From positions 53,957,554 through 54,021,553 of the forward strand of contig OX485803.1 in assembly GCA_950295325.1 (NCBI GenBank): a stretch of DNA of 64,000 nt, read 5' to 3'. Source of the DNA: Polytrichum commune. Lineage: Eukaryota; Streptophyta; Polytrichopsida; Polytrichales; Polytrichaceae. Made by a program: the position numbers and the translations under genes. Shown here piece by piece: positions 9,709-58,128 of this stretch. Every line of letters starts with the position of its first letter. The stretch's first letter is position 1. Under the pieces are notes generated by a model. The model was not told the origin of the DNA. It ran no database searches and saw only the letters and a list, made by a program, of their open reading frames with translations.

Positions 9709-10064
9709 TGTAACGTACCTTGCTAATAGTTCATAAAAAAAATCACTTATTGAGTAAAGCTCACCTCCCAACCTAGAGACACACCACAAAACATAATGTG
9801 CGTTCTCTTTCCCCCGAGCCATATTTATACATAGTATCTATGAAATACTTTTAGAAGATTCAAGTCTTTTTATACATAGACTGAAGTCTCCTTATCTATA
9901 TGCTTAAATCGCTTTTTCTTTTTCTTTTCACATATAAGAATCATCCAACTTCTCATCCTTCTCATCCCTCGATTTTCCATTCATCCATGCTTCTTAGTCT
10001 TGAACGTTCATCCCTGCAATTTATTTCCATCCTCAACAATACGCTTCCCAATTAGTCCATTATA
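9709..10064 (-). repeat. 5' LTR of the Ty3 element
   Basis: This partner of 5515-5870 lies upstream in element orientation. The outer CACAA (10065-10069) is the right copy of the target duplication. A TATAAATA-like box on the minus strand near 9821-9831 may be the promoter. Confidence 0.93.
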
Positions 10065-20680: not shown

Positions 20681-20686
20681 AGACCC

Positions 20687-21281
20687 ATGAAGGAAGCACA
20701 CACTATGGAGATGGTGGCACGGAAACCACGAGACACGAGGACGAGGAAACAACCAAGGCAGAAGCGGCCTCAACAACCTTTGTCAAAACCACGAGATAAG
20801 TCATATGAGAAGCCTTACTCTGAAAATAAGTTCAAATCATCGCGTGAAACTCGTGATTGTCATAGCTGCGGTAGATTTGGACATTTAGCTAGAGACTGTA
20901 AAACTCCAGAGTATTTTGTAAAAATGTATCAAGAGTTGCAGCGTCTAAAGTCTAGACAAAGGGAAACTCACACACTAGATGCTCTGCAACTAGATAGTGT
21001 GGATCCTGAGAACTTTTATGGTGAGTATGGATAAATCCAAGGCTATTTATGATATAGCCTTGTTGGATAGTGCCACCACTCACACGATGTTACGATATCC
21101 AAAGTATTTTACATTTTCCAGCCACGAAGTTGATACCTGGCAAGAGTGTGATGTGACCACAATTGCTCGAAGACATAATTTAATATTCCGTGAGGGCCAA
21201 GGAACTATAGTATTGCCTAGGGGGGGACCCCCTTCTGGTGTACAAATGCAATGTACTCTCCCACAGCTCCCCGCAGCCTGA
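20687..21281 (+). pseudogene. Nucleocapsid knuckle and protease of the copia element
   Basis: A basic region leads to the CCHC knuckle CHSCGRFGHLARDC near 20857-20898. About 150 bp later, in another frame, comes the protease active-site segment ALLDSATTHTM, followed by a typical beta-rich region. A frameshift separates the two at about 21000-21035. Confidence 0.85.
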
Positions 21282-22696
21282 TCAGCTACCGGGATCTCAG
21301 GGCTAATGGGATCCACGTCCTCACTGCGCTGAGGAATGGTGAAGAAGCATTAGAGCTCAAGCAAGGATCGCGTGTCCTTGCTACCGTGCATGCGGGAGCC
21401 AATGACTTATATGAGATACACATTCACACTAAGGTGAATGTGGACCAAGCATCAGAGCTAAGACAAGGGTTGCGACCACTTGACACCGCACATGCGGAAG
21501 CCGATATCTTGAGAATATCCAGTAGCGCTACGGACTCTACTGATGGAGACACGATTGAACATCCCAAGGGCTTTATTTTCTCCGTGATCTCTTCAACCAA
21601 GGTTGAACTGTGGCATAGCATGTTAGAACATCTTGGGACCACGATGTTCTGATGCATGTTACCAATACTCACATGACATGAGGTTTGCCCCAGCAATGCC
21701 AGCAAGGTGGGTGATTGTGTTGCGTGATCGCAAGGAAAACTGATCCAGCGACCGTCCCGGTGGAAATTTCCAACTGAGCTACCATCGAGACTTCAAAGAT
21801 TGCAAGGTGATGTCTGTGGACCCATCAATCCTCCATCAGGTTTTTTCAGATATTTTCTGGTCCTAGTTGATGCATCTGGAACGCACTTTGAAGTTTCACT
21901 TTTGAGTACCAAAAACATGGTTTTCCCAAAGCTATTAGCTATGTTGCTCAAGTTCCGAACTCACTATCCGGATTACCCTGTGAAAATGTTGAGGATGGAT
22001 AATGCCAAAGAATTCAAATCTCAATAGTTTGAGGACTATTATATAGCATCAGGTATTAGTTTGACTTACTCAGTCCCTTATGAGCATTCTCAAAACGGTC
22101 TAGCTAAAGCTTTTATAAAGAAGATTCAGCTCATTACACAACCTCTTTTTATACATGCTAAATTTCTTTCTAGTTTTTGGAGACACGCTGTCCTTCATGT
22201 TGCTACTCTCCTTAGATTTCGTCCTACTTTACTTAATGATCATTCTCCCTTTGAGCTAACATCGGGCCATGTTCGTAATGTTGCTCACTTGAGAACTTTC
22301 GGATGTCAAGTTTGGGTTCCCGTAGCTGAACCGCATAGAAAAACAATTGGTAGACATCGTCAAGAAGGTATCTATGTAGGCTTTTACTCGCCTAGCATTA
22401 TACGCTATGTCATTCCCTCAGTCGGGACCCTCCAACGAGCTCGATTCCAGAATTGTAAGTTTGAGGAAACTCATTTTCCATCGATAGAAACTCCCAAACC
22501 CAGTCTTAGTTTGGAGTTTTGGGCTCCAGAGACATTCACTCTGAACCCTGACCCTCAGACTGCTCTCGCCGATTCAGAAGTTAATAAAGTTCTGCATTTC
22601 AAGTCTCTTGCTGAGAAATTACCTGATGGTTTTAGCAACAGTGCTAGAATCACCCGCAACCCGCTACCAAGCGTTGGCCTCGGGGAGTGCACTTAA
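21251..22696 (+). pseudogene. Integrase region of the copia element
   Basis: A GAG-pre-integrase segment ends in VELWHSMLEHLGTTMF. The integrase core follows, with FLVLVDASGTHFEVSLL (first Asp) and LRMDNAKEFKSQ (second Asp). In the third catalytic segment, HSQNGLAKAFIKKIQ, lysine stands where the family has the catalytic glutamate. Stops at about 21652 and 22027 break the frame. The reading frame is cut near 22679 by a MITE. Confidence 0.88.
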
Positions 22697-23092
22697 AGTT
22701 AAGACTAGGAATCACGTGAGTGCGTACTTTTGACCCCCCTATGTATGTACTAAAAAATCATCTAAAAATTGTAAAAAAAATATGAAGTTGCTAAACACAA
22801 TCTAAAGTTCTTGTTGTATAAATTTCAAAAAATAATCAATTGTAAATATTTTTAAATTGATTTTTGAAGCAAAAAACAATGCATTTTAGTTCAAACTTCT
22901 ATCATTTTTTTTAATAAATTTTAAAAACTTCTCGTCCTGAAAGTTATACCAAGTGATAGATACATATATAATGATTTGGCACTTAAAAAGTCTCAATTTA
23001 AAAACTATTTTAAGGCCAAGTATTGTAGGGGGTATGCCATTAAAACGCACTCACGTGTATTCCTAATCTTAACTTTAAGTGCACTCCCCGAG
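22679..23092. mobile_element. MITE with 8-bp target duplication, inside copia pol
   Basis: The 414-bp element starts CTCGGGGAGTGCACTTAAAG and ends with its inverted copy; the inverted repeats run about 47 bp with a few mismatches. GCGTTGGC (22671-22678) and GCATTGGC (23093-23100) flank it, an 8-bp duplication with one change, consistent with hAT. Removing it and one copy of the duplication would leave the copia coding sequence continuous. There is no coding capacity. Confidence 0.9.
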
Positions 23093-23100
23093 GCATTGGC

Positions 23101-24448
23101 TCATCACCCGTCACTATTTTGCCTCAGAAACGTCATCTTGACTCAGTCCTATCTTCCTCTAAAATGGTCCAAATTGATCCTCTTAGTCTTCATAGTAATC
23201 GCTCGATCGTCTCTGATTTTGATCATGTGACGCTAGATGAAGCCAAGTCTAGTCTTGATTGGCCTAAATGGTTAGCAGCCTTAAACGTTGAGTATCCTTC
23301 CTTGAGGAAACACAAAGTATTTGGTCCTTTGGGTACTAATCTTGCCACCAAACCGGTAGGTTTCAAACTTATTTTTACTAAGAAAAGAAATGCCCAAAGG
23401 CATGTTGTTCGATATAAAATCCACCTAGTCGCTCAAGGGTTCACCCAACAACCTAGAGTAGATTATGAATTTATTTATTCTCTTGTTATGGACTCGAATA
23501 CTTTTCGTTACCTGTTAGGTATGGCCGTGCAATATTCCTTATAAACTCAACTTCTTGATGTAGTTATTGCTTATCTTTATGGTCCCATAGACGTTGTCAT
23601 ACATATCAGACCTCCACCTGACTTCCTCTCGGAAACTCCACCAGAGGATACTCAAGGATCTTATTATGGCCTCAAAATCTAGAAAGCTCTCTATGGCTTG
23701 AACAAGCCGGTAGAATGTGGTACAAGCACCTACAGGATTTCTTGCTTCACCACCAGTTTCAGCATGATCAAACTTTGCCATGTCTCTTCACCCTGAAAGA
23801 CAAAACCGGCTTTGTGATCATTGCAGTATATGTTGATGATCTTAACCTTATAGGCACACCGGACACTTGTAGTCGTGTCATGAGCTTGCTCACCGCTCAA
23901 TTTGAAATGAAGTTGTTAGGCAAGACTATTTTTTGACTAGGTCTTCAAGTGGCTCACTTACCTGATGAAAATATTCTTCTCAAAATCTAGAAAGCTCTCT
24001 ATGGCTTGAACAAGCCGGTAGAATGTGGTACAAGCACCTACGGGATTTCTTGCTTCACCACCAGTTTCAGCATGATCAAACTTTGCCATGTCTCTTCACC
24101 CTGAAAGACAAAACCGGCTTTGTGATCATTGCAGTATATGTTGATGATCTTAACCTTATAGGCACACCGGACACTTGTAGTCGTATCATGAGCTTGCTCA
24201 CCGCTCAATTTGAAATGAAGTTGTTAGGCAAGACTATTTTTTGACTAGGTCTTCAAGTGACTCACTTACCTAATGAAAATATTCTTCTCCATCAAACCAC
24301 CTATACACAAAACCTCTTGAAAAGGTTTAATATGGACCATGCGAGTCCACTTTCCGCCCCTATGATGGGACAAAGTAGAACTTTTAATTATCCCTACCGT
24401 CCTTGCAAGGAGGAGGAGGAGGAGGGGTTCTATGATAAGAACAGGTAG
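23101..24448 (+). pseudogene. Reverse transcriptase of the copia element
   Basis: The N-terminal part carries WLAALNVEY, VGFKLIFTKKRN and HLVAQGFTQQPRVDYEF. The catalytic part carries the YVDD box in IIAVYVDDLNLIGTP, which appears twice (23715-23936 and 24023-24244) because of a 308-bp tandem duplication. The thumb-like QNLLKRFNMDHASPLSAPM follows. Stops at about 23544, 23681 and 23936 and frameshifts make it non-functional. Confidence 0.9.
23671..24286 (+). repeat. 308-bp tandem duplication in copia reverse transcriptase
   Basis: 23671-23978 and 23979-24286 are direct copies, both starting CTCAAAATCTAGAAAGC and differing at only about four positions. The unit includes the YVDD catalytic box. 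The duplication is much younger than the decay of the surrounding element. Confidence 0.93.
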
Positions 24449-38820: not shown

Positions 38821-38829
38821 CAACTTGAT
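38821..38829. repeat. 9-bp target duplication of the giant MULE, left copy
   Basis: CAACTTGAT recurs exactly at 54062-54070, just outside the matching terminus. Nine bases is the most common duplication length for Mutator-like elements. Confidence 0.8.
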
Positions 38830-38868
38830 TGGGCGTTGCTAGGGCATGAGCGTAGAGCGTAGAGCGTA
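38830..38868 (+). repeat. Left terminal inverted repeat of the giant MULE
   Basis: It begins TGGGCGTTGCTAGG and continues into three GAGCGTA heptads at 38848-38868. The last 25 bases match the right end exactly when inverted. A further GAGCGGAGAG phrase follows at 38884. Confidence 0.82.
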
Positions 38869-39284
38869 CATTTTCTGAATTTTGAGCGGAGAGGAATTAT
38901 TTTTAGTAATTTGTTGTCCAAAAATAGAAAAATTATTTTTGGGAAACGTATATTCATCAGAATATTCGAATATTATAGTCTTATGACCGTGGAATTCAGT
39001 ACCCATAACCGTGCAAAATGGGCTTGACATGGAATAAATTTATCTGTGACCGAGTTTTGGAGGAAATAGAAGACTTCATTGAATAGAACTAAAAGGACAC
39101 ATGTTCACGGAACAACACAAGTGAAGGACAAGTACAAGTGATTCATAAAGTTAACATAGCGAACAAATAATATATATTTATATATACGTATTCACTAAAT
39201 TGTGAAAATACATAGAGTGACGTGTGTCATACACGTTTATGAAAAAGAACATATATATGAGACTAATAAATAAATCTGCTGAAT

Positions 39285-42200
39285 TTAAACTGTAGCATGG
39301 GCTAAGATCCCCCTTTCAAGAATTGTTTTCACCTCCTTGAAACTGAGGGTAGGCGCATGCATGAAGAGGTCATGGTCGGCCTCTAGTTTGCAGACTTGTA
39401 CGTAGAGATAGTAAAGATGCTTACAAGGTCGGAATGGACACCCGCGTCTACCCAGCTTAGCCATTGTCTCTTTAAACGCCGGGCAATTGCAGTCTGGGTA
39501 GGCACTGATTGAGAGATGGTAAACTGACTCCGTGGGAGCTGGTTTAGATTGCAAAGTTACAACGCATCCAAAACCGGGTTGAGGTATCATTACTACCTTC
39601 AGAATACTTGCCTTCATTGCTCTAGCGGAATCAATGTTCTGCATGTGCTTCAAACTGGCACAAGTGATTGAGCGGCGCATGTTCTTTGATTTTCGTGTTT
39701 TTGGATAAACGTCCGCATTATCTGGCATTGGAACCTGTGACAGATCCGGTGGCGGTGCTACACTGTTGAACGTGCGGCTCATAGGAACGCTTTGCTTTTG
39801 GGGAAGTTGAAATCCCGCATTCTCCAACGCCTCAATCTCGGAACATGTGAGATTGGTCCCTATCTTCACAGGCCAAACCGATGGGATGGGAGGTCGTTCC
39901 TCGTAATCCGAAAATGGCTCTATCCATCGTCGACGATGCCCCTTCACACACCTCTCAATATCGTCAGCACAGAAAAAAAACTGCTCCACCACCTTCTGGT
40001 TACCTTTTTGAGGGTGGGTCCAAAGGCTAGTGTATGTGGGAGTTGGGGTGCTCTTCCCGTTTTGGACGATACGGGATGTACACTTCTTTCGAGTGACAGC
40101 CATCTACGCCCAACAAGCCTTCGCAGAAACCTTATTAAGTCGGGCAATGTGCCATAGCTTCTCATTCACACGAGTCTCCTCCACGGCCGTCACCCGTCCA
40201 ATATCTATGCCAGTTGAGGCAGGGGGCTGTGTTGGGCGTTCCACTTCCACTTGAACTTCCTCCTGGATGGTACTCAGATTTTGAGCACGAGCACGTGTCA
40301 CCCTCCGACCCACTCGAGGACGTGAAAAATTAACAGTGTCTGGCCTATGAGTTTCTTCTTCGGCGCCAAGGGGAAGATCCGGCTTCCGTTTCCTCGACCC
40401 AAAAACCTCAGCTCCTTCGAGGTGTGCGTCTCGAGTACAGGAATCTTCGGCTCCGGGCATGTTCAAGACGGCTGCGTTCAGGGTAGTCGGATCCCCGGTT
40501 CGGTGAGCTCGGCGTTGGGCTGTCCGAAGTCGAAGTTCTTCTCTCGAGGGTCCAGAGCCTACCGCTCCACCTTTGAGGTATTGATAGTACCCCACCACTT
40601 GCAGGAATGCTCTAACGTAATCGTCGACGGCTGCTACGTAGAGATCGCCACCCCTATTGCCGGACACTTGCAACCATTTGTTGTGAACGGTCTCAGCAAG
40701 GTTGCAAGAGGGCATTTCAGCTAGTTCATCCGGAGAAAGTTTCTTCTCCTGTACGAAGGCAATTGGTTAAGAAATGTTCGGAAACTCAAGTGAGCAAGGA
40801 GGAGTCGTGGTGGGCCATGCCATTTAAAAGCAAAAGATTTAATATTGTTTAGATACTACATTAGACGCAGAGAAAAAAGTGCAAACTTAAAGAATTGAAT
40901 AATTTGAATGAAAGAGTGTATACTTACCAGTTCCATGAAACCACCCCACTGCATGTATCGGAAATGCCAAAACGCAAGCCAATGGTTCAAATGGTGGAGG
41001 CCTGCGTCAGAGGTGGCACCCGAAGATGTCCACCAGGCTTTGATTGCCAAATAACGTGTTTCAGCCTCTGCCACAGACCATGCATCTTTGTACTGCATAC
41101 ACAATTTCTTATGTTGATCTTGCAATTCGTGCACGATGTATTGTTTGGTGTGTTTTTGTAGGGATTGCGCCCAATGGAAATAACACGTTCGCTCGCGGCC
41201 TTCCATGGGTATTTTTGGGTATCCGGATCCGTATATGATACGCACAGCGTTCCAATTGGCTTGAACACTATCCGCCATGAAACCTTTGAACTGCAGCTTG
41301 TGTATTCTATGCCTACCCATGACGTGGTTAAGGTTCTTCCAGAACACGAGTTGAGCATCTTTGTCCTCATACTGGAAATCACAGCAAACAATGGTGAGTA
41401 CACGTTGGTAAGAGGAGTCGTACACGTGGCAGGCCATGGTGGTCCAGTTGGCAACTCGTTTGACATGGTCAAACATCATCCATGAGTGCTCTAAATCGCC
41501 GCTAGGTTGCATTCGGCGGACAAGGTCAACACCGCTGCCAGGTCCCACCTCGGACATCTTGAATATGAAGACCTTGTCGGAGTCGTCAACTTGGCCTGGA
41601 AACATGTTTCGTTGCACGTAGGCCCAGTTGCTAAGCCCTCTAAGCTTAGTGATGCCATCAAGAACGCCATATCTGCGTAGATACTTGAAACTGTAGACAC
41701 AGTTTTTTAAGTTAAGGGAGTTGAGCTCCTTGCAGCATTGGAAGATAGGCTCTAGCTGTTCCAGAGAAAGTAAGGTGGGAGGGTCGTCTTCTTCGCGGAG
41801 CAAGACGTTACCTAAAACATCCTTGCTAGTTTCCAAGACTATTTTGGAAATGGTAGCTTGCAGGTTGCGCTCAACATGTTGTTCGATCAAATCGTCTATT
41901 ATCTTCCGCGTGCCCCTATAGTCTCCTACCTTGACAGGATGTTTATGGTTGCCTACATGGACGCAAGCACGCTCTTGCGTATCATCTCCAAAAACGTAGA
42001 AGATTTTTGCATCACAAGAGGCTACACAAAAAGGAGGTTCTTTACAGATCTTACAGACTATTGTTGAAGTTGGAGGTGGAGCGTCTGCAACAGGGAAGGC
42101 ATCTTTGGAAGAACCTTCGAACTCGACCTCATTCACTCCAGATGCGCGTTCAGGCCGCTGCAGAAACCCACATTTGGGATTGTGGCATTGAAGATGACCT

Positions 42201-42454
42201 ACACAGTTAGACGACCGGAATGACAGCCCCAACGTATTACTGATGTTAGTAGTCATAGTCTTTGTCCACATATGGCCATCGTAACGTTTGTCCATACCTT
42301 CCATAGATTTAGCATTCATCTGGACGGCAGATGGAAGGGTGGGAGGAAGAATGAAGATTACATCCCCATTGAACGACGGTGGCAAGAAATCTACGTTCTC
42401 AGTACGGATGGAATCATAGTTCAGTTTTTTAAGGACTGACTTGCTTCCAGGCAT
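39285..42454 (-). pseudogene. MULE-type transposase with SWIM zinc finger, one in-frame stop
   Basis: Exon 1 is 42454-40928 (509 codons) and exon 2 is 40748-39285 (488 codons with the final stop), joined by a 179-bp GT-AG intron that keeps the frame. Residues 84-95 and 134-147 hold cysteine clusters and ACVHVGNHKHP at about 163-173 ends in HxH, resembling WRKY/GCM or FLYWCH-type DNA-binding fingers. The catalytic region has VYDSSYQRVLTI (Asp346), FMADSVQANWNAV (Asp395) and RTCYFHW (CxxH), the usual MULE pattern. A SWIM finger (CNC near 39490, then CKH) lies near the C-terminus. A single TAG at 40104-40106 interrupts exon 2. The next codon is ATG in the same frame. It would cut and paste the element by binding its termini. 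The family call is good; the third acidic residue is not assigned. Confidence 0.85.
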
Positions 42455-42489
42455 ACTACCCAGGGAACGAAGGGAGGGAAGAATGTTTA

Positions 42490-43038
42490 TTAGTTTAGTA
42501 GTTTGCGAAGGTATAAGGAAAGGAGTAGTCCTACGTGAATCTTGAGAAGAGGAGGGAGATGGATGCTTAGCATAGACCGGATTGATGGATGGGAAGGCCT
42601 CCCCTCATCATCAGAAGAATCGGACAAATCGATGCTAACGCGGAGACCTGGTTTGATCTTGATACGAGACAGTAAGGGGGCTTCAGTGCACAGTGTGGAG
42701 GAACTGCGAGGAGTGAGTAGGACTGTAGAAGCGTTCATGGACTCCGACAAGCCAAAGACGCGATACCTTCCGGGCTTGAGTTTCCAAACGCGAGCATTAT
42801 TATCTAACGTTACGGGCTGGACGTATAAGGAATAAAAGACATTTCGAGTTTCCGGATCGACAACATCTGTCTCTAACCACAAGCTGTCAGCATCGAAACC
42901 ATAACGAATGGATAGCCACTGGGGAGTGAGATCAACAGTTCCATCAGGGCCAGTAGGTATGCATGTAGGGATAAGAGATCCAGGAGAAACAAGTTCGATG
43001 GCATCGAAGAGTGGAGCTTGGACAGTAGCGGAAGACAT
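42490..43038 (-). CDS. Unknown MULE-borne protein or upstream exon of the transposase
   Basis: From ATG at 43038 there is an open frame of 182 codons. It contains WLSIRYGFDADSLWLETDVVD, KPGRYRVFGLSES and the acidic patch DLSDSSDDEG near residue 155. I recognise no domain. It ends 35 bp before the transposase ATG, in another frame. The minus-strand stretch 42530-42450 has possible intron signals (GTAGGA, CTAATAAAC, a pyrimidine run and TAG), so part of it may be an exon spliced to the transposase, although the simplest join does not keep the frame. Confidence 0.5.
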   Translation of the reverse strand: MSSATVQAPLFDAIELVSPGSLIPTCIPTGPDGTVDLTPQWLSIRYGFDADSLWLETDVVDPETRNVFYSLYVQPVTLDNNARVWKLKPGRYRVFGLSESMNASTVLLTPRSSSTLCTEAPLLSRIKIKPGLRVSIDLSDSSDDEGRPSHPSIRSMLSIHLPPLLKIHVGLLLSLYLRKLLN

Positions 43039-43200
43039 TGAGAAACAATTTGACAAAGCTATGTGAATGCATTTGCAAAAGGGGGATTGAAAAAACATAA
43101 TGGGATATATACATGAGAGGTTGATGAAATCGTTGGACATCCCAGACATGTACAGGATGTAGTCAGAAAATGTTTGGTTAATTATGGGAAATATTAAGAA

Positions 43201-43638
43201 TCATGGAGTGCCAGACGAAAATGGGGCATTTTCCATATGGGGCCCTTTGCCATATTTCTCACCGTCATGTTTATGACAATGGTCAATCCCTAAACTACGA
43301 ACTGCAGTGCATCCTACGCAATCGAGTTTCTGACCTTTGGCACTCCTTAATATGGATCTAGAGTAAGTGCCAGGTTTAATAATCCCTGTTCTAGAATAGG
43401 CATGAATCTTGAAAGTAGACTTGTTTTGTATCAGTGTTGCATCAACTGCCCGCAAAGATGGAGTCTGTGGTTTAGGAGTGTGAACGACGACCGCCGGAGT
43501 AACTAAGCAGTCAGGAGGGTTGGCAATCTTCATGTTGTTGACGTCTGCAGAACCATCGATGGACAACATGGTGTGAAGTTGAGATGAACTAGGAGCACCT
43601 AATGGAGCAAGGCTTGGGAGACGTGAGTCAGTACCCAT
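43201..43638 (-). CDS. Unknown MULE-borne protein with Cys/His motif
   Basis: The frame from ATG at 43638 has 145 codons. Its C-terminal half holds GTYSRSILRSAKGQKLDCVG and then CVGCTAVRSLGIDHCHKHDG, that is, a CxxC pair followed by DHCH. That pattern resembles a treble-clef or endonuclease VII-like HNH site, but the motif is too short to be sure. A TATA-like box lies about 55 bp upstream. It could be the first exon of the transposase transcript or a separate gene. It has no premature stop. Confidence 0.5.
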   Translation of the reverse strand: MGTDSRLPSLAPLGAPSSSQLHTMLSIDGSADVNNMKIANPPDCLVTPAVVVHTPKPQTPSLRAVDATLIQNKSTFKIHAYSRTGIIKPGTYSRSILRSAKGQKLDCVGCTAVRSLGIDHCHKHDGEKYGKGPHMENAPFSSGTP

Positions 43639-43689
43639 TGGAGAAGAATATGATGAGATGACATGAAGGAAAGGGTACCAATAATTGGG

Positions 43690-43699
43690 TATTATATAC
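43690..43699 (-). promoter_or_regulatory. TATA-like box for the leftward MULE genes
   Basis: On the minus strand GTATATAATA lies 52-61 bp upstream of the ATG at 43638. This spacing allows a short leader. It is a sequence match only. Confidence 0.4.
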
Positions 43700-43701
43700 A
43701 C

Positions 43702-44299
43702 CTTGGGTAGACACCAATACCCAAATATATGACAACCTATTAGATTAATTAATAGTCAATATTTATTCATGTCAATTCTAGACAACCTGTTTCATGTAGG
43801 ATTAGAATGTACTCCAGTAATAGTCATTACTTTATGACCACCAAATATGATACATGTCAGTATAGACTAATTTTCCTACGCACTAAAAAATAACTCATTC
43901 TTGATAACCTAATATATGCTATGCCGAAATGATGAAGTTAAACCCTAAAGGTGTATGTACCTTTTATGGAAAAATAATAAATTTGAAAATTTGTGGAGGC
44001 CGTCATTGTCAAGAGAGATGCATAAATATATCGACAAATTCGAAATAGATTAGTAACTGATGTCAGTGTTGTCAGTGATCTAATCTCGGATACCGCGTTT
44101 TATTAAACGCGGGAATATAATTCGATGACATAGCTTGATAGAAATTAAATACAAAAGAAAGGGATACGGAGGACTAGCTTGGGAGACATGAACGTACGAT
44201 TAGTTCCGGGAGGAGCATCTCGTAAGAGTAGCTAGTGTGCATGAGAGTTTGTGTAGGAGCAGAGAAGTTCGGGCATTGGTGGGGCATCGAGACACACAC
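43702..44299. promoter_or_regulatory. Divergent intergenic region inside the MULE
   Basis: About 600 AT-rich bases separate the leftward and rightward gene groups. There is no gene in it. A bidirectional promoter is the natural inference from the gene orientation. Confidence 0.45.
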
Positions 44300-45419
44300 A
44301 TGAAGGAAACATGGCACACAACAGTCTCTTCAGCGGAGCCGTCACGGAAGCCTAGGAAGAGGAGGGGCAAGACGAACTTCAGCAACTCGAAGCAGAAGAG
44401 GCGCGATGCGAAGGATCTGAAGAAGAAGGACACCCCAAGCATTGAGGGTCGTGGAACTCCATCGAACTTGAGCGATGAAACGGGAGAGGATCATGGAGGA
44501 ACTTGGAGAGGGAGGTGTAAAATACGGTCGTTACACCTAGAGTCGATAGCAGAAGCTGAGGACGCGGGCAAGATTCACGGGACCTCAGTTGCAACAGCGA
44601 TGGACGAGAGCAAACAAGAGAAGGAATCGAGTAGCAGAGCGAGTGATGCTAGTAAGATGGATTCACCTCAGCAGACAAGTGATCCTCCCGCGGACGATGT
44701 AAGTGTTTTCCTTGGAGGCTTAAGCTTCTGTTGAAATCCTAATCATTGCAGTAGTTTGAACTAACGCGAGATATGTTTGTGATTCATTAGCGAAAAGATA
44801 GCCCTGATAGCGGACATATCTATAGAGACACGGATGATATAGAATTTCCTGATCACGAAGTGACAGCTTTAGAGGGAGAAGAGAAGCGCACAAATTGTAT
44901 TACACCGGCTATGCGGGGAGGCACGGGACATCTGATGGAAGCAAGAGCGCCAAACAAAGAGGCCTCGAAGGAGCAACGCAAAAAAACTCGATCGGAGACA
45001 CTCGATGATTCACAAGTAAGACAATCATTCCATTTGCATCTAGACTTCTCATTGCTGACTGAACATGAAACTGCATTCAGCTAAATTTCCCGGCTTTTGA
45101 TAGAGGTGAGAAATTCACCAATCCCACAGATCCGTGGGATTGGAGAATGTATTTCTTGTTGGGAACAACAATTTACTCCCGATTCATCAGATTAAATTTT
45201 GCCTACCACATCAAGCAACGATACCGACATTCATCAATCCTACGGATCTGTGGGATTGATGCATGTGCATATATTTTTACATCGGAACTAACATTCATCA
45301 ATCCCACAGATCCATGGGATTGGCAAGTGTTTACGCAGTTGAGCAACGATGCCGACATTCACCAATCCCACGGATCCGTGGGATTGATGCATGTGCATAC
45401 ATTTTTACATCGGAGCTAA
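44300..45419 (+). CDS. Basic, probably nuclear protein of the MULE, unknown function
   Basis: Exons 44300-44698 (133 codons) and 44791-45015 (75 codons) are joined by a clean GTAAGT...TTAG intron in phase. The first exon is very basic (PRKRRGKTNFSNSKQKRR, DLKKKD), suggesting nuclear or DNA-binding location; the second is hydrophilic. After a donor at 45016 two outcomes are possible. A third exon at 45081-45419 keeps the frame and would translate the first palindromic repeats as NPTDPWDW. Alternatively, splicing in the same phase to 49091 would fuse these exons to the ParB-methyltransferase gene. I recognise no domain. Confidence 0.55.
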
Positions 45420-45767
45420 CATTCATCAATCCCACGGATCCGTGGGATTGGCAAGTGTTTGCGCAGTTGAGCAACGATACTGACATTCATCAATCCCACG
45501 GATCCTTGGGATTGGCAAGTGTTTACGCAATTGGGCAACGATGCCGACATTCACCAGTCCCACGGATCCGTGGGATTAATGCATGTGCATACATTTTTAC
45601 ATCGGAGCTAACATTCATCAATCCCACGGATCCGTGGGATTGAATAGTATGCACATTGTCATGTAACAAGACAAACATTAATCACACGGATCCGTAGGAT
45701 AGGAGAATGTTTACATTCATGGGCAGCGGGGCCCACGTCTTGCAATCCCACGGATCCGTGGAATTGA
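45120..45767. repeat. Array of ten GATC-centred palindromes with 64-bp period
   Basis: The unit is a 22-bp palindrome made of AATCCCACGGA and its complement. Copies start at 45120, 45236, 45300, 45364, 45428, 45492, 45556, 45620, 45680 and 45744, so spacing is 64 bp except for the first (116) and one at 60. Spacers come in two types, one with GCATGTGCATACATTTTTAC and one with CAAGTGTTTACGCAGTTGAG, partly alternating. The arms vary, but GATC is kept in all ten. A further copy without GATC lies at 48979-49000. The array may be a protein-binding or methylation target, or an intronic satellite. Confidence 0.93.
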
Positions 45768-45949
45768 TGAATGTGCATAAAATCTCACAGAGGAGGCTAT
45801 AGTCTTCAATCCTACGGGTTTTTATTTTGCCAAAAAGTGACATTTTTCATGAATTTTTCCTATTTTTTTCATGATAAGTCAGTAAACTTTATGAATTACG
45901 AGAATCTATACACCATTTTCTTGAAAATAATCTAGTCTGTTTGGAACTA

Positions 45950-46349
45950 CACTAAATAGGTTGATTAGTGTTAGATGAAGATTAGTGTTAGAGCCAATAG
46001 TTACCCAAAACACTAAATGTCACTTGAAAGTACAATTAGTGTTAGAATTTCTTTTGTCTTTATTTTGCATTATCTGAGTTGGGTTCTATTAAGTTTAAAT
46101 TTTTGTAATATCAAATTCCTAGCATATTACATTTTATATGAGGCTCACATATCCTACCTCCAATTCTTCATTTGAAGATCTACAAAAAAATCATCTAACA
46201 CTAAATGCGCTTATGTAAATATTCAAAGTTACTAATTGGTACAAATAGTGTTAGAGTTGACATTTGATGTTCTAACACTATGAAGACAATTGACATTTAG
46301 CGTTTTCGTCGACTATTAGTGTTTCCAACACTAATCAACATATTTAGTG
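45950..46349. mobile_element. CACTAAATAGG MITE, second copy, inside the MULE
   Basis: The 400-bp element has the same termini as 19560-19897 but lies in inverted orientation relative to it. The left end is CACTAAATAGGTTGATTAGT and the right end is a slightly diverged inverted copy. TA precedes it, but AA follows, so the duplication is not preserved. It interrupts the MULE, so it inserted later. Confidence 0.85.
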
Positions 46350-47164
46350 AAGTCCGCCGACTGGAAGGAAGGGGAATCTTTTGAGCTGCCCAAGGGTGAG
46401 AGGCGGGCAGCGGAAAAATAGGAGGCCTTGAGGGGGGTCCGGGGAGAGCTGGGGCTTCTCTCTCATTTCTCTCTCTCCCCCCCTCAGGCTAGCTGAGAAA
46501 CTCTCAGGGCTAAGCCCTACCGGTTTTGGAAGCCGGGAAGAGGGTGCAGTCACGGGAGGTGAGAGGAAGGTCTGCGGGCAAGGGGGCACCAAGAGCGGTG
46601 CTGCTAGCTGCAAAGATGGGGAGTGGAGAATGAGAGGACTGTCAAATCCACAACGCTGCACAGAAAAGTTCGAGAGGAGCAAGAGGGCTTCTCAAGATAG
46701 ATAGATAGATAGATAGATCAGGGGAGAGAGTCATCATACATGAGCTTCATGGTGAAGTAGCCTGCCTCCACTCAAATCACTTCACATGCTTTCCATTTCG
46801 CCTTCCTGCTATATTTTGGATTTTTGCATTTAGCTACGAGCAGGAACCTCATCTCTAATTTACCAGGACCCATCTGTTGAGCTGGTGCAGCCCTGAGCTA
46901 AATCATCTTCTTCCCGCACTGATCAACATCAGTTGGGCATGCATGCACTGATCAAATTAGGTTTTAGTGGTGTTGGGTCCGTGCGACTCAATAGATGCAA
47001 AAATGAATTAGGTGTTTTAGCAGACGGAGTGTGCGAGCTGAATCCCTCCTCTAAGGTGCTCCAAGTTATTGGCCAACGCTCAGGGTTACATACGGCCATA
47101 TGCTTAGCCTGAAGCAATATGAAGAATCATGCTTCAGATTGGCAGACGTTGCTGCCTTTACATA
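46350..47164. other. GC-rich block between two MITE segments
   Basis: This 815-bp segment is richer in G and C than its surroundings and includes a (GATA)n tract near 46697-46716. It lies between two directly repeated 169-bp MITE halves. Its texture resembles a captured gene or leader fragment, but the open frames (up to 112 codons, minus) are not recognisable. Confidence 0.4.
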
Positions 47165-47333
47165 CTACAAAAAAATCATCTAACACTAAATGCGCTTATG
47201 TAAATATTCAAAGTTACTAATTGGTACAAATAGTGTTAAAGTTGACATTTGATGTTCTAACACTATGAAGACAATTGACATTTAGCGTTTTCGTCGACTA
47301 TTAGTGTTTCCAACACTAATCAACATATTTAGT
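47165..47333. repeat. 169-bp duplicate of the MITE right half
   Basis: It matches 46180-46348 with one mismatch in 169 bp. Both copies run from CTACAAAAAAATCATC to TATTTAGT. The left half of the MITE is missing, so it arose by segmental duplication rather than by separate transposition. Confidence 0.92.
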
Positions 47334-48978
47334 CAGTCCATTAAGGCCGGGCTGCCTTTGGGTTAGGGAAAGGCTAGGATCTCAGATTTGACAGATGCTC
47401 TACAACTATCATTCTGGATGAGGGCGAAGAGTCAAAAGCATAGATGGTTGGACATACGAAAGGTCATCTCTATAGGAGTAGCTTGCGTATGGATTCATTA
47501 TTCCAGTATGAAACTTGTTTATATCCTTGTGAGGTTTCAGAACCTTTGTAGCCAGTTCCAAAGAAACTCTGCTTTTGCAATTGATGCGAAATATGGCCTC
47601 CATGCCTAGCTATGGTGGTGTAATGATTCTTGTGACTCATTTGAACTCTCCACATGCAGATTGCAATGATATGAATGACCACACTGGGGTTGTTGAAAGG
47701 ACGAGTCCATGATCATCCATAGTAGATTGGGAAAGGATGATAAATTTAATGAAGACTTTGTTTATCATATCTTGTCATCCAATCATAAATTTTTGGGGTT
47801 TCTTTATCGGTTTTGATTGAAATTATTGTTATCAATTAGGTAAGGTCAGAAGGAATTACTAAATGCCAGTTCGAATTTTACTTGTAATGTGGGAGCAAGC
47901 AGGAGGCGAATTCATGAGGTGGCGTCAACAGGCGAAGAGTCGCAGAGGATGCACAGACTACAATGTCAGAGCAATAACCAATCAGCCAGGCGTCAACAAA
48001 TTTCAAGGTGATTTCAGTTACCCTATCTGAGTAGATAAGGACTGTTGCTTATGGCTATGGTTTATCATCTTAGATCTTCACAAAGAGTACCCAGGCGCTG
48101 GTTGTGATAGATGTACTTCATAACAGAAATAACTTATATACTATTCAGGTTGCAATACTCTCTCTAGTTTTCTGTGGAAGGAAGGTACATAAACCTTGGT
48201 AAGGTAATTTCATGTAAGTACCTGACATAGGTTGTGTGCCATGTAGACATATATACTTCTTTCCCCCAGATAATGTCAGTTAGCGCTTTCTGTGAGTACA
48301 GGCCTTTATCTACATTGCTTCTTTCTCTCGATTCTGTGATTTGAAAGACCGTCCTCGCGAAGTTGATCGATAGGGAAATGCATAGGTTTCTGATATGCGG
48401 TGGAGCGGTTGTTGGATTAGGTTCCTCGTGGTTCAATCTTGTGAATTGGCTCAAATTGGTGATGTCTTGGACTAATCCGGCTGCTGCTTGAATGACTACA
48501 GAGCTTGCTGGAAGAAGGTGAGGAGATGACTATTGCTGGGCACGTCAAGGAGAAGAAATTCCTTCGTCTCAGGCGCTCCTTGTGAGGGCCACAGGGAAAT
48601 TGCCTAGTGTTATTCTAGTAATTAGGATAAGTGGTGCAAGGCTGCAGCTGCATGAAGCTTAATTCCAGTAGAATGTTACTTTAGAGATGCACATGATCAT
48701 GTTTGGCTACCTGTAGAAGGGACTGCTGTCACAGTAGTATCAAAGGTAGGGATGCAAAAAGCGAACTCTATGTATGAGCAAAGCATTTGTAAATGCTCTT
48801 GAGAAAGAGAAAATCAATAAAGAAAAGGTGTTTTACACACCACTTGTGATCAAGTCAGCTGAGAAATGGAGGTAAGGGGTGACCAATTGAAGTTTAGTTA
48901 GTGAGGGAGGACGCCCCCCACCCGGCAGATTTTCACTCGTCAGGCACCTCGGTTGCGGCTTCGTGGACAATTTGCTCC
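47334..48978. other. Non-coding part of the insertion within the MULE
   Basis: No conserved frame is present. It has transcript-like texture with possible splice signals, but I cannot tie it to a gene. Since palindromic units occur on both sides (45744 and 48979), the segment between them probably interrupts an originally longer array or intron. Confidence 0.4.
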
Positions 48979-49000
48979 AATCCCACGGACCAGTGGGATT
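48979..49000. repeat. Isolated palindromic unit outside the array
   Basis: It matches the 22-bp array palindrome except at the centre, where GGACCA replaces GGATCC, so GATC is lost. It lies about 90 bp before the acceptor at 49090, supporting the idea that the array belongs to the same intron. Confidence 0.8.
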
Positions 49001-49090
49001 AAGAGATATGGTCAAATTTTCACAATTTCTTTGCTGCTTCATCTCATTAGTCTTTCATTTTGTTAATGCCATTTGTTTCTCTCTATGTAG

Positions 49091-52000
49091 GAGTTGGAGG
49101 GAATGGATCTCTCCGATGATCTTGTGGTCTTGGAGCCCTCTGTGGAGGAGGAGCAAGCGGAGGATGCTGTGGACTTGAACAACGTCGAAGAGCTGGAGGA
49201 TATTGAGGAGGTTGTTCCAGAACAACTCGAGCAAGTTGACCGGGTGAACACCGACGTGCAGGAGGTAGTTGATTTAGACACTTATGTCTTCCGTTCTTGC
49301 ACCTGCCCTCCTTTAGAGTCAGTGGTTGAGTTATTCTCGTGTGTACTAAATTGAATCGGATGTTTGTAGACTCCCTCTAGACTTCCCGAGGAACCTCCCG
49401 AGTCGGCTAACCCCGAGGAGAGTGAGGTCAATCTTCGAGCGAAGCAGAAACAAGATTCGACGGCAGTCATCAATCGCCTCCGCATTCGGCCTCTTGAGAA
49501 GTCTCGACTTTGCATCCCCCTCTGCCGCTTGCGGGATTTGCCACTCGTTCGGCCCATCAACGAGTTGGATGTCCAGAGGTTGGAGAACGAATTCGTTACG
49601 GGGTACCGAGATGGTGACCGTGTTCTCTATGTTTCCATCTACAACAACAAGGACGACATCTTGGAGGTCACGGAGGACATCTCGTCCACCTAGAGTCCGT
49701 TGTGGAAGCTTGAGAGTGAAAGATTCGATGCATGGATGGCCGCCGACCCCGATCTTGTCCACTTTGTGGGCAAGATGTTCTACGTGTGGGAGGGGAACCA
49801 CCGGTTGACCGCTTGGTGGCGCCACGTGAACAGGTTCCATCCTACGGAAGAGGCGTGGCATATCTCTCCCTATTGTATTGCCTTGGATTCGCGGAAGCAT
49901 AGTGGCGTTCTCATGAATGCCATGAACGACGTGAATTGGTATGTCTCTCTCTATTCTTTGCTACTTCATTCTTTGTTTGTGAGTGTCTTCTCATCTTGTC
50001 TTCTTCAATTTTTTGTAGGTCTATCAAGAACGACCACGTCAAGTCCAGCCTCCCCTCCAAGCTTCACCGCATCCGCTACTTTGGGACCTTGGAGTTGGAG
50101 GACTTCAAGGACCTCATTTCCAAGGAGGATTACTTGGCTTGTATCAATGCCAAGAGGAAGCACAACACTTGGTACCCCTTGACCATCGACGTCTTCGTCT
50201 CCTTTCTCTACAAGGTAATCACTTCCCCACACTTTGATTTCTCTCCTTTCAATTTCCATCTTCTTCGTTGGCTTACCTTTGCTTGCAACCAGAGAGAGAT
50301 CTCCACCGCCTCCGACGCTGCAGCTAGAGCTTACAAGGATGAGACTCCGGCCGATCAGAGGACCGCTCTCGGTGTTTGGAGGGCCATGACACTTGCTGAG
50401 GAGAAGGCCAGAAAGTCCATTCGCTCCAAGAGCTTCGAGAAGTATGTGGCCGTTGCCAACTCCGAGAATACCGACGTCTTCTTTGATGAGGTGCTCCTCT
50501 TCATCTTCTCTTCTCCTTCGATTTGTCCTTCATGATTTCTTCTCGATTTTGCTAACTCACCTCCAATTTCCTCATCTAGATCAATCGGCACTCTCGGTGA
50601 ACACGGTCCCGGACATGACCATCGAGAAGCTTTCTAAGGTGGCCAACACTCATGTCCCGTGTCATTTCAAGGCGAAGTGGCTCCGTTGGTGGAATTCCAC
50701 CATGACTGTCCGAACCGGCAACAAATTCCCTTCCATTGTGCCCCTTAAGGAGAGGGTCCTCGAATCCTGGCTTCATAAGGCCTCTTTCTGGGCTCAAGTG
50801 AATCTCTCCCCTCCTTTGGATTGATTGTTTTCTCTACGGTTGTCTATCCTCATTTCTTGTTTTTCATTCTATGACTACAGTTGGAGGACAGGGTTGATTT
50901 GGAGTTCAAGTCCTTAGAGGCTAGCCTTGGTCGCGCAATTGGGATGTGCAAGGGGGTGTGTTATGTCCACCAAAGTTCGTGGATGGATGGAGGATCCTTC
51001 TCTGGGACCACGCCTTCCCGCATTACTTTGAGGAGAAGTCAAACACGAAGTTCCTCAAGGGCACGAACCTCACTAAGTTTGAAGATGGTATCAAGATCAT
51101 TCACCATGTCCTTTATAGGTATTTCTTCCTCCTCTCCACTTGTCCTTCATTTTCTTTGCAACACTCGAACTTCTCTCATTTTTTCCCATGTCGTTTGCTT
51201 TAGGTACATCTATCACGAGCTTATTCCGAAAGAAGCTCTTTCTGCCTCCTTTCTACCGGTCTATGTCGAGGAGTGGGTTCTGGACTCCTCCCCGAATTTC
51301 ATGTACACTGACGAGCACGATGTTTACCCATTTGCTCACCTCAAGCATGCAGGGTGGTATTTGGACTGTTCAAAGGGATTCGTTCCTCCCTCGGAGGTTC
51401 ATTTGTTCACCTCTTTGAATGCTGAGGCACCCGCTGATGTTGTCTTTCACGAGCCCGTGGTCCCCGAGGAGTCGGTGAAGGGTACGAAGGCATCAAAGGT
51501 TGTTAAGGAAATCAAAAGCAAGAAGGTGAAGGCGGTCTCGGGTACTCAAGCTTCCCAAGCCACTGTGTCTACTCGTTTTGCTACGAAGGCCACCGCCGAG
51601 GCTTCCGTTGCACCTGCTGCCACCTTTGTAGGTAGCCCATCCCTCCCTCTTGCCTTGCATGCCCCCGCTCCTTCTCACAGCACAGCCACTGCCCCCTCTT
51701 TGATTCGCAAGAGGAAGGCATTCGCAGCAGCAATGAGTGCTACATCCTCTGAGACTGCTTCTACCTACAGTCTCATTGAGAATGTAGACATCGGAGTGCT
51801 CATGGACCACTACACGAAGACCAACTCCCACCAAGCGGCCTACCTTCGCATCGAAGAATTCCTTGTCAATGTAGGAGTCCACTTCTTTTTTCATTCTTGC
51901 ATTCATTTCTATCTTGTGAAGCATTCCTCTTCTCTTCTCAACCTTCTTCTTTGCTCTACAGGTTGGTGTCAGTCGGACTCGCCTTAACAGGAATCCCAAG

Positions 52001-53255
52001 TCCCATACCGGTATCGACCTTCTCCTTGTCGATGTACCGGACAATCTCCCGGTGCCCGCCATCTCGACTTCGCCATCCGACATTCCAGCGTGGAACCGCC
52101 GGGGTCCGAGTTTCTTTTATGATGTCTTTACTTTCGCAGAGGACAACCTCCATGACAACGGTGTCCTCGTCATCATGCACCCCGATGCCCCCAAGATGCA
52201 CGACGACATTCGCGATTGGGCCTTGGAATGTCACTTTACTATCGCCAGGGACTGGTGGGGCGTGAATGATCTTCACCTTACGTCCGCACAAGATCCCAAG
52301 ATGTTTGTAAGTATTTCTTCTCCTCCTCTTCATTTACTTCAAGTTGTACATTTTTCTTTTTGTCACTAACTATGCAATTTTCTTTGTAGACAAAACGCTT
52401 CTTCATCAAGGTTCTTGTGCCCCTCAGCTCCACTCTCTCCGTTTACGAGGCGGAGGACTATTCGAAGTTGGGCTTCTCATTGGAGAAGGATTCCTTTCTC
52501 CACAATTTCACGGATGAGGAGAGCCAGCTCATGAAGGATGGCAAGGTGCCATGGAGAGGGGCTCGAGAGAAGAGCATGGAATTCTTAAGCATTGTTATCC
52601 AAACGCTCACGAGGAAGCACAACATTGTCATGGATTGGCAATGTGGCACAGGTTTCTCTTTGCCCTCCTATACTTTGTCTTTGAGTTTCATTTCTTGCTT
52701 TTGCATTTTTAATTTTTTTCTCTACCTCACTCAATTTCTTTTCATTTAGGTGCATCCATCACTGCGTGTCGTATGGCTGAGCGCCACATTGTGGCGCTCG
52801 AGCGAGACTCGGAGATCTTCGAGGCCGTCCTGCTGCCTATGCGGGACTCTGTACCTCCGGCCGAACCCGTTGTCGCACATCCGGACCCCTCTTCTACTGA
52901 ACCTCGGCAAAAGCTCCTGAGGCGTCACAGAAAGTGTGCGTAAGTCTGATTTCTAACTTAGCACCTCTTTCATTGGTTTTTTTTTCATTTCTTTTCTTGC
53001 TTTAGCTTATGCATTCTAGTATGTTGCTTTGTGTGCAGAGTTCCACGGGAGAGCCCTATCCGTGTCCTCAACCCGGACATGTTTCGAAGCCCTCCACGGG
53101 CGTTCGAACTACCTTCGTATGCTGGTGGGCTTGCCCATCAGTTCGCGGTCGCACCATCTCCACCTATTACTCGCGCTCGTCCTGTTGATAGGTGTGTGTT
53201 GGAATATTTAGATGTAGAGGCCAGGCAGGGAATGGAAAGTGATAGAGATGACTAG
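49091..53255 (+). pseudogene. ParB-like plus DNA adenine/cytosine-N4 methyltransferase-like gene
   Basis: Eleven exons fit GT-AG rules: 49091-49264, 49370-49938, 50019-50214, 50293-50490, 50580-50797, 50881-51118, 51204-51870, 51962-52306, 52390-52651, 52750-52939 and 53039-53255. The first ATG is at 49103. Exon 2 encodes a ParB/sulfiredoxin-like region: PINELDVQRLENEF and then FYVWEGNHRLTAWW. A lysine/alanine-rich linker lies in exon 7. Exons 8-10 encode an N4/N6-type methyltransferase in beta-class order, with a motif IV-like DLLLVDVPDNLPVP (DVPD instead of DPPY), DNGVLVIMHP, and the AdoMet-binding MDWQCGTGASITACRMAERH then ALERD. Lesions are an in-frame TAG at about 49691, a lost base near 50586 and another near 50973; exon lengths agree with one missing base in each of exons 5 and 6. 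ParB-methylase fusions are known from phages and bacteria. It sits rightward, opposite the transposase. Confidence 0.78.
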
Positions 53256-54023
53256 GCGTTTTTTAAACTATGAATAGCATTATAACACAAAAAATATATG
53301 TTTTCTTGCCTCCAAACACCCGTGGGGCGTTTGGTTATGTTAAAGGGCACATGCGTCTCTAAAGTGATGCTTGGAATGGTTGGAGCTCGATGTTCTTCAT
53401 TTGTCATATAATTTCTTATATGAAGTAGTAAAAGCCCTTGACATAGTAATTGTTTCCATTCCCCACACATCATATAAGCTTTATATCTAGGTGGGGGAGG
53501 GAATTATTGCATACGAACGTATCTATCACTCGTCCACCGTGAAAACCCTAGAATAGTATGTAACTTTGAGTACTATTGTTTCTTATTAATTTGACATCAA
53601 AATTTGAGGCCAATCAACCTAAAGAATATTCACTTGTTGGATTGTATAAACTTCGCCATTTAAATTATTGTTTCGAGGATGCCCGCATCTAAATGATGAA
53701 GCCAGCCCTAATTACGCCCTTAGCCTTAAACACTAAAACAAATTTGTGAATTAATTAAAACAGAATTTCATTTCAACCTTGAACGGTCCTCATTTAAATC
53801 ACCCTTTCATTTAAATGATGACGTCAGCCCTAATTTCACTATATATATAATAACAAAAATTTGCAGTAGGACCCCCTTCCACGGATTTGGGGTACCCATT
53901 TCCCTAAAAATATACATTTATAATTTTGTCCGGACCAAATTCAGTGGTAATAGGATCCTTATGTTTCAATAAATTTTTGAAAAGCGAGCGGAGAAATTCA
54001 CGAAAACATGACGCTCACCGCTC
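53256..54023. repeat. Right subterminal region of the MULE with direct repeats
   Basis: A unit of about 29 bp, CAT[C/T]TAAATGATGA followed by GTCAGCCCTAATT-like sequence, occurs at 53686-53714 and 53808-53836, 122 bp apart. Related CATTTAAAT phrases lie between. There is no gene after the stop at 53255. Transposons often carry such repeats near their ends, but a binding role is inference. Confidence 0.5.
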
Positions 54024-54061
54024 TACGCTCTACGCTCTACGCTCATGCTGTAACTTTCCCC
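54024..54061 (-). repeat. Right terminal inverted repeat of the giant MULE
   Basis: On the minus strand it begins GGGGAAAGTTACA, followed by GCATGAGCG and GAGCGTA heptads. Further GAGCG phrases lie just inside. Perfect agreement with the left end covers 25 bp. Confidence 0.82.
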
Positions 54062-54070
54062 CAACTTGAT

Positions 54071-57680: not shown

Positions 57681-57714
57681 CTTTTTGTTTCACTAGCGCA
57701 TGTGCCTTAGGTAA

Positions 57715-58109
57715 GAGCATCCTCAGTCGGTCTAGGTAAAGCTCACTGCAAACCAAGACCTATCTTGCTTAAAATTGCTCAAAATTTAGAGGGAGTGCAC
57801 CAAATCTTGCTTTAAAATGGACAGATCCTCCCACACTCCCTCTAAATGTCAAAAATTTGGAGGGAGTGTGGGAGGATCTTTCCATTTTTAAGCAAGATTT
57901 GGTGCACTCCCTCTAAATTTTGAAAATGTGGTGTTTTCAATGAGGGATTTCACCTACATCAAATTTTTACAATTCTTTTTTCTTGAGAAATATCTCACGT
58001 TTATTTAGGTGTGCTTCTAATGATGGTAATTTCAGTTTCTAATTTTAGGTCAGTCAAAAGATAGGTTTTGGTTTGCAGTGAGCTTTACCCAGACCGACTG
58101 AGGATGCTC
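57715..58109. mobile_element. PIF/Harbinger (Tourist-like) MITE with internal hairpin
   Basis: Terminal inverted repeats of about 50 bp begin GAGCATCCTCAGTCGGTCTA and match the right end nearly perfectly. TAA flanks both sides (57712-57714 and 58110-58112), the 3-bp target typical of PIF/Harbinger. Inside, 57781-57847 and 57854-57920 form a second, almost perfect hairpin with arms of about 67 bp and a short loop. There is no coding sequence in its 395 bp. Confidence 0.93.
57781..57920. repeat. Near-perfect 67-bp hairpin inside the PIF MITE
   Basis: The left arm AAAATTTAGAGGGAGTGCAC and onward pairs with the right arm ending CCCTCTAAATTTT; only a few mismatches occur around position 57815-57823. 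The loop is about 6-7 nt. A transcript of either strand would form a precursor-like foldback. Confidence 0.9.
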
Positions 58110-58128
58110 TAAGGTACTTAAAGTAAGC

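Follow-up and report, generated by a model that had tools for sequence, protein, structure and literature searches.

The moss Polytrichum commune carries, at high copy number, a transposon gene whose product joins a probable ParB-like region to a permuted N4/N6-methyltransferase-like domain, and three diverged subfamilies carry different palindromes of 18-26 bp 5' of this gene. The copy analysed here lies in a 64,000-nucleotide stretch of contig OX485803.1 (assembly GCA_950295325.1, positions 53,957,554 to 54,021,553 of the forward strand; hereafter the window), within a 15.2-kb Mutator-like element (MULE-like) with a 9-bp target duplication and inverted repeats, which bears out the transposon context proposed in an initial annotation of the sequence. 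That annotation could not say whether such a fusion was known; the ParB-methyltransferase transposon protein is in fact of a kind already known from algae, having been described in algal transposons (PMC12477816). The best reading, to which we assign a probability of about 0.55, is that of a self-targeting transposon protein resembling VANC of the VANDAL MULEs, with its methyltransferase activity altered or lost.

All-frame translation yielded an 11-exon gene model on the plus strand at window positions 49091-53255, with introns of 78-105 nt that are all GT-AG. The start of exon 1 is a provisional 5' end placed directly after a possible splice acceptor, the first ATG following at 49103. The ParB-like region lies in exon 2 and the methyltransferase-like domain in exons 8-10. 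The two sequence motifs on which the initial annotation was based are both present: VWEGNHRLTAWW is encoded in exon 2, in the open stretch past 49694, and MDWQCGTG|AS spans the join of exons 9 and 10. The window copy is a pseudogene: exon 2 is interrupted by an in-frame TAG, and exons 5 and 6 are both frameshifted. Overlapping loci allowed three sister copies to be put together: those at C2:22.69 Mb and C7:13.10 Mb have all 11 exons open and encode 1088 amino acids, and the one at C6:44.2 Mb has no ATG and a ~1-kb insertion in exon 3, its sequence as read stopping within exon 11. The introns, earlier taken as a sign of long residence in a eukaryote, are also present in the sister copies, which have the same 11 exons.

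The abundance of the gene was assessed in the window's own genome (407.8 Mb, 406.1 Mb of it in seven contigs of 42-78 Mb). With the exon-2 translation, 1262 first-look candidates were obtained, and the 150 of them that were scored all matched (E <= 6.3e-58); for exon 8 there were 1021 such candidates, and again all 150 scored were matches (E <= 1.4e-23). A chance open reading frame is ruled out by the genome-wide exon-2 matches together with the intact 1088-residue sister copies. At least 88 of the 150 scored ParB sites have, on the same strand, a methyltransferase exon-8 site no more than 5 kb further downstream, a figure that is a lower bound since 150 scored sites of each half were used in the count. 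Extending the distance to 20 kb brings the figure to at least 97 of the 150, with a median of 2577 bp, and in a single case (1/150) an exon-8 site lies within 5 kb but on the wrong strand or upstream. Eight subfamily-2 copies with an identical exon-2 score of 220.5 bits (C4:57.23, C4:4.77, C1:62.62, C2:56.50, C3:8.69, C3:55.76, C4:30.65 and C5:43.38 Mb) suggest a recent burst.

Exon 2 is under purifying selection, judging by ratios of nonsynonymous to synonymous divergence (dN/dS) obtained for ten pairs with a simple Nei-Gojobori script. The six between-lineage pairs gave 0.085 (with dS nearly saturated), 0.096, 0.093, 0.101, 0.099 and 0.218. Two of the remaining four pairs were saturated and the other two were almost identical, with few changes and a dN/dS of 0.5.

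Comparison with known families makes the methyltransferase homology of the second half solid. The window copy matched a PHROG methyltransferase family (E=3.7e-5), CcrM (0.0011) and DpnA (0.027), all over the region of the S-adenosylmethionine (SAM)-binding motif, where the Pfam family N6_N4_Mtase (PF01555) was also matched at E=0.0045 and 17.4 bits, against a gathering cut-off of 26.7 bits; the best tblastn match to phage methylases had E=5e-5. Two relatives exceeded the Pfam cut-off: L090, a diverged relative from the same genome found by the Pfam model itself (32.5 bits over profile positions 1-216 of 221), and L091 (35.3 bits). The Ceratodon purpureus protein introduced below remained under it at 15.7 bits. 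L090 aligned in the permuted beta-class order, with motif IV before motif I, and the window protein has the same order. The methyltransferase assignment of the initial annotation is supported by the permuted order and by a relative above the cut-off; the annotation had missed that motif IV is not DPPY and that palindromes accompany the gene. Separately, strong N6_N4_Mtase matches (98.5, 68 and 55.4 bits) were seen on the small contigs C10 (47 kb) and C12 (61 kb), perhaps reflecting bacterial contamination.

The catalytic motif IV of the N6_N4_Mtase beta class has the consensus [DNS]-P-P-[YFW]. The moss sequences do not fit it: among 28 copies read, 25 have D-x-P-[E/D], two end in A/G and one in Y. 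DVPD is present in all four subfamily-1 copies read (the window copy and three sisters), while the 20 further copies taken from the exon-8 list have D-[V/I/M]-P-E (18/20) or D-V-P-[A/G] (2/20). The other four are L136 (DVPE), L137 (DIPE), L088 (DIPD) and L089 (DIPY). Because the change is shared across lineages with an exon-2 dN/dS near 0.1, it looks selected, not decayed, bearing in mind that selection was measured on exon 2.

In ParB/sulfiredoxin folds a beta strand is followed by a nucleotide-binding motif of GxxR type. An alignment of 20 exon-2 sequences (A1; 161 gapless columns, mean identity 83%) shows strong conservation of VRPIN, RLENEFV.GYR.GDR..YVS and VWEGNHRLTAWW, with VWEGNH invariant and the R almost so. 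We take this motif and the order of elements to resemble those of ParB/sulfiredoxin domains, and on that footing the exon-2 region is quite probably ParB-like. Profile searches of Pfam, PHROG, NCBIfam and PDB with the exon-2 region alone returned no match to ParB, nor did searches of PDB and Pfam with the 20-sequence family. Matches by tblastn were at chance level for one copy against phages and for another against plasmids, and hhalign of one and of two sequences against phage ParB gave nothing, shuffled queries scoring equally high. When A1 was compared by hhalign with 73 phage ParB sequences, VWEGNHRLTAWW was aligned at the expected place with IIAGHGRVQAA, but the score of 16.7 falls within those of 100 column shuffles (mean 12.8, maximum 22.0); with so narrow a phage profile (Neff 2.2), the comparison is a weak one. 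Structure models were too low in confidence for the fold to be read (pLDDT 31 for exon 2 in single-sequence AlphaFold, 42.7 for the Ceratodon protein plus window exons). The ParB claim of the initial annotation therefore stands as to motif and order, and not as to any significant profile or profile-profile match; of the two profile searches it had suggested, that with the methyltransferase half matched PHROG and, below the cut-off for the window copy and above it for relatives, N6_N4_Mtase, and that with exon 2 was without a significant ParB match.

The carrier element was delimited by its target duplication, its inverted repeats and comparison with sister copies. Among 19869 random pairs of 40-bp stretches, 97 had a 9-mer in common by chance. 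The inverted repeats have a 25-bp perfect, GAGCGTA-rich core lying 13-14 bases inward, the outermost 13-14 bases being unaligned; their local score of 41 was exceeded by one of 1907 random pairs (73, perhaps a real repeat of the window), the next scoring 31.5. At the right end, L133 and L135 share the element as far as ...GTAACTTTCCCC (window 54061) and then have differing flanks, a combination that points to mobility, while the left end is placed by the direct repeat alone. MULEs are described as making 8-11-bp target duplications and as often encoding SWIM fingers (PMC6446971). The duplications found here lie in that range, being 9 bp in the window and 9-10 bp in a distant relative, element A, with 8/10 bases alike (by eye) in a further relative, element B. 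We accordingly call the element MULE-like, on its target duplication and inverted repeats, and treat the transposase family assignment as putative. The transposase-like gene is divergent from the ParB-methyltransferase gene. Three of its reading frames (those with coordinates in Table 1) share 50%, 47% and 37% identity with the gene on the minus strand of element A; the product of that gene matches the SWIM zinc finger weakly, under the Pfam cut-off (E=0.039). Neither gene gave a Pfam transposase or MULE domain match; a DDE resemblance was noted by eye only. Scans of viral contigs with the methyltransferase half and the transposase reading frame returned no relative.

Elements A (C1:9.65 Mb) and B (C4:44.1 Mb), which represent subfamily 3, have about 15 kb in common in several blocks. 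Element A comprises a homologous minus-strand transposase-like gene, palindromes, and plus-strand genes including the ParB-methyltransferase gene, and is flanked on both sides by TCTGTTACCT. Its methyltransferase half (L089/L090, C1:9.66 Mb) shares 22% identity with the window protein across 470 amino acids (E=7e-24), and its ParB-like parts share 33% and 40% (E=4e-14 and 2e-8); in both A and B the ParB-like parts are interrupted by stops. Because element A has the same layout though its methyltransferase half is only 22% identical, the gene is long resident in a MULE-like transposon lineage and is not a recent capture. Upstream of the ParB-methyltransferase gene, subfamily-3 elements contain a kinase-like fragment (L090 1600-2761; GRGSYGVV, HCDLSFTN and GDWGSA by eye) whose Pfam match, at E=0.21, is not significant.

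The palindromes differ between the subfamilies. In subfamily 1 the single palindrome beside the gene (-475) occurs at the same position in 10/10 loci, the window included; it is perfect in eight, with one mismatch in L110 and two in the window copy. The array is present in two subfamily-1 loci (the window and L112), the sequence read in the other eight ending nearer the gene. In subfamily 2, sites of the type CCCTCTCGG-NN-CCGAGAGGG were found in 15 of 20 loci, no more than 1.5 kb 5' of exon 2 and mostly as arrays with a spacing of ~95-140 bp; in L136 an array of this type lies within the gene copy, between exons 2 and 5, and L122, L124 and L127 have one AT-rich palindrome each, unrelated to the subfamily-2 type. 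Element A of subfamily 3 has five sites, one imperfect, of the type TTGTGCGC-NN-GCGCACAA. Perfect palindromes of at least 20 bp numbered 21 in 30 upstream regions, against 0 in each of 20 two-base-block shuffles, and five downstream of the exon 2 start (four of subfamily-2 type, one unrelated, in L105). By eye, subfamilies 1 and 2 both follow the pattern CCC..CGG-NN-CCG..GGG, with spacers of one and three bases. GATC is present in the subfamily-1 palindromes and in some of subfamily 2, and absent from the AA/TT-centred subfamily-2 sites and from the subfamily-3 sites. In their specificity to subfamilies the palindromes are like cognate binding sites, and we infer that they may be bound as such.

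The nearest described system is a ParB-methyltransferase accessory protein in the Ectocarpus transposon Sola1-1_Ec32; transposons of red and green algae are said to have such proteins too (PMC12477816). As described there, the Ectocarpus protein shares with ours the combination of ParB-like and N4/N6-methyltransferase domains, a length of ~1100 amino acids, a position on the strand opposite to the transposase and a large DNA transposon as carrier. The moss gene accordingly has the features of that accessory class, both domains in one protein of a large transposon, antisense to a transposase-like gene, given that its ParB and transposase assignments are putative. It differs in its moss host, its MULE-like carrier, its subfamily-specific palindromes and its altered motif IV, the Ectocarpus protein being compared by its description only; the string 'palindrom' is absent from the main text of that paper. 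A search of 5.8 billion proteins returned no named algal ParB-methyltransferase protein, either with the window copy or with a 4-sequence profile. The broken window copy had no match at all, and the profile found two proteins, P0124 and P0125. The former, hypothetical protein M758_9G084500 of the moss Ceratodon purpureus and the sole named match, shows homology across 69% of the protein, at 32% identity (E=2.7e-110), and has a similarly altered motif IV, DAPE; its 758-residue gene model starts downstream of the ParB-like region. P0125 (309 amino acids, on a 60.6-kb contig) resembles exons 3-5 (E=7.9e-54 against the family), its reading frame running on through the introns, and is probably plant DNA in another public assembly.

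The likeness to VANC is one of function by analogy only. VANC is likewise encoded by MULEs, and its motifs are tandem repeats in noncoding parts that differ by family together with the protein, but they are 8-9 bp long and in one orientation, unlike the 18-26-bp moss palindromes, and VANC binding and anti-silencing are experimental results (PMC5735166), whereas both would be deductions for the moss protein. Phage fusions of ParB and N6_N4_Mtase domains (PF02195 plus PF01555; L001 and P0004-P0123; PMC12704722) also place a ParB-like domain ahead of a permuted methyltransferase. The L001 protein, of 426 amino acids, has DPPY, and a ParB domain is listed for its close relatives, P0004-P0123. What sets the moss protein apart from these is its long extra regions and additional sequence ahead of the GNHR motif. 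The bdelloid rotifer N4CMT and the Marchantia N4-methylcytosine (4mC) enzyme are further bacterial-type N4/N6 methyltransferases in eukaryotes, but they are described as host enzymes and not transposon genes, the first fused to a chromodomain and the second said to be without additional domains (PMC8885841).

In the reading we favour, the ParB-like half would recognise palindromes of its own element, as ParB does parS: those of the array and, in the window's subfamily, also the site by the gene. The protein would thereby be concentrated on copies of the subfamily to which it belongs. There the SAM-binding half would either modify element DNA through its altered active site or serve for binding without catalysis. 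The likely benefit would be that the element is marked or protected from host silencing, or that its transposition is helped, as VANC does for VANDAL MULEs, and the palindrome next to the gene could allow autoregulation. Binding, methylation and anti-silencing by the moss protein are all proposed here by analogy; because motif IV is replaced, a non-catalytic or altered activity is at least as likely as methylation. Several observations weigh against this scheme. The window copy is unable to make the protein, and ParB homology was never significant in any search. L122, L123, L124, L127 and L132 are without a subfamily-2 site within 1.5 kb, L115 has a single one, and the subfamily-3 sites are known from one scanned element, where they lie 3.2-3.8 kb from (5' of) the ParB exon. 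The motif IV aromatic is absent in 27/28 copies, so methylation may not happen, and the palindromes could be bound by the transposase instead of the ParB-methyltransferase protein.

It is only a little short of an even chance that base methylation has been lost entirely, leaving a SAM- or DNA-binding scaffold and a purely sequence-specific transposition or anti-silencing factor. The acidic replacement in motif IV is widespread and extends to Ceratodon, which is unlike random decay, and the SAM-motif region is kept; yet that kept region suggests cofactor use, motif IV retains its Asp and third-position Pro, and L089 has DIPY. An active self-modifying enzyme, which would methylate its own element (4mC or N6-methyladenine) for marking or protection as proposed for the algal proteins, seems rather unlikely to us. 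The architecture is as in the Ectocarpus protein and the lengths are nearly equal (1088 against 1104 amino acids), DIPY in L089 would suit such an enzyme, and the GATC in subfamily-1 and some subfamily-2 palindromes is a conceivable, if speculative, adenine target, but the almost general loss of the motif IV aromatic and the palindromes without GATC argue the other way. That the palindromes are transposase binding sites, or structural repeats, and have no connection with the ParB-like half is a similarly doubtful proposition. Subterminal repeats bound by the transposase are common in plant DNA transposons, and in both the window and element A the two divergent genes have the array between them; the arrays are internal, however, not terminal, one palindrome is fixed beside the ParB-methyltransferase gene in all ten subfamily-1 copies, and long palindromes would suit a dimeric ParB-type binder. 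Slightly less likely again is a full parS-like system, in which a ParB-like, possibly nucleotide-switched clamp loads at the subfamily-specific palindromes, spreads, and carries a D-x-P-E domain without canonical N4/N6 methylation, palindrome and protein co-diversifying so that each subfamily addresses its own copies only. A captured cellular or viral gene without a role, as in Pack-MULEs, is very improbable: several MULEs are described as acquiring host genes or fragments (PMC6446971, PMC13317346), but the layout is constant across elements whose methyltransferase halves are 22% identical, dN/dS is ~0.1 in five of the six between-lineage pairs, and both halves stand side by side at 88 sites or more. 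A recent capture or passenger gene was rejected on this common layout and selection.

Table 1. Features of the element and its ParB-methyltransferase gene, in window coordinates.
Feature	Position	Strand	Remarks
MULE-like DNA transposon, 15,232 bp	38830..54061		9-bp flanking direct repeat, inverted repeats near ends
Left target site duplication	38821..38829	+	CAACTTGAT
Left terminal inverted repeat	38830..38890	+	GCATGAGCGTAGAGCGTAGAGCGTA core
Transposase-like gene	39291..43200	-	reading frames 42604-40862, 40766-40107, 40103-39291 plus an upstream one
Short basic open reading frames	44204..45090	+	by eye; possible 5' exons or separate small gene
Palindrome array	45120..45765		10 copies of AATCCCACGGATCCGTGGGATT, 0-3 mismatches, mostly 64-bp spacing
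Single palindrome, candidate operator	48979..49000		~100 bp 5' of first ATG
Exon 1	49091..49264	+	ATG 49103; acidic N-terminus
Exon 2	49370..49938	+	ParB-like region; in-frame TAG 49691-49693 in window copy
Exon 3	50019..50214	+	
Exon 4	50293..50490	+	
Exon 5	50580..50797	+	frameshift in window copy
Exon 6	50881..51118	+	frameshift in window copy
Exon 7	51204..51870	+	linker
Exon 8	51962..52306	+	methyltransferase-like domain; motif IV DVPDNLP
Exon 9	52390..52651	+	methyltransferase-like domain; SAM-binding motif DWQCGTG begins here
Exon 10	52750..52939	+	remainder of SAM-binding motif and stretch after
Exon 11	53039..53255	+	C-terminal tail, stop
Right terminal inverted repeat	54000..54061	-	
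Right target site duplication	54062..54070	+	CAACTTGAT

Other repeats are present in the window. Within the element, positions 46180-47333 form a nested insertion-like segment with two 169-bp direct repeats, 99% identical and with starts 985 bp apart, perhaps a small insertion of long terminal repeat (LTR) or terminal-repeat retrotransposon in miniature (TRIM) type. Outside it, 57714-58110 resembles a miniature inverted-repeat transposable element (MITE), with 53-bp inverted repeats that are 96% complementary and 291 bp apart. Retrotransposon remains recognised by eye are Ty3/gypsy-like at 5885-9722 (minus strand) and Ty1/copia-like at 20093-23933 (plus strand), the latter with a 308-bp tandem duplication at 23671-24289.

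A full-text literature search, covering few subscription papers and preprints, found no report of a ParB-methyltransferase transposon gene in land plants, in MULE-like elements, or with palindromes or an altered motif IV. The present family extends a barely studied class of transposon protein from algae to a moss, to MULE-like elements and to high copy number. The widespread replacement of the DPPY aromatic is a caution against inferring an active methyltransferase from domain matches alone. The candidate sites that differ by subfamily supply a missing piece for the proposal that proteins of this class bind the transposon encoding them and, if the palindromes are cognate sites, this would be a second plant system, beside VANC, with a transposon-encoded, sequence-specific epigenetic address.

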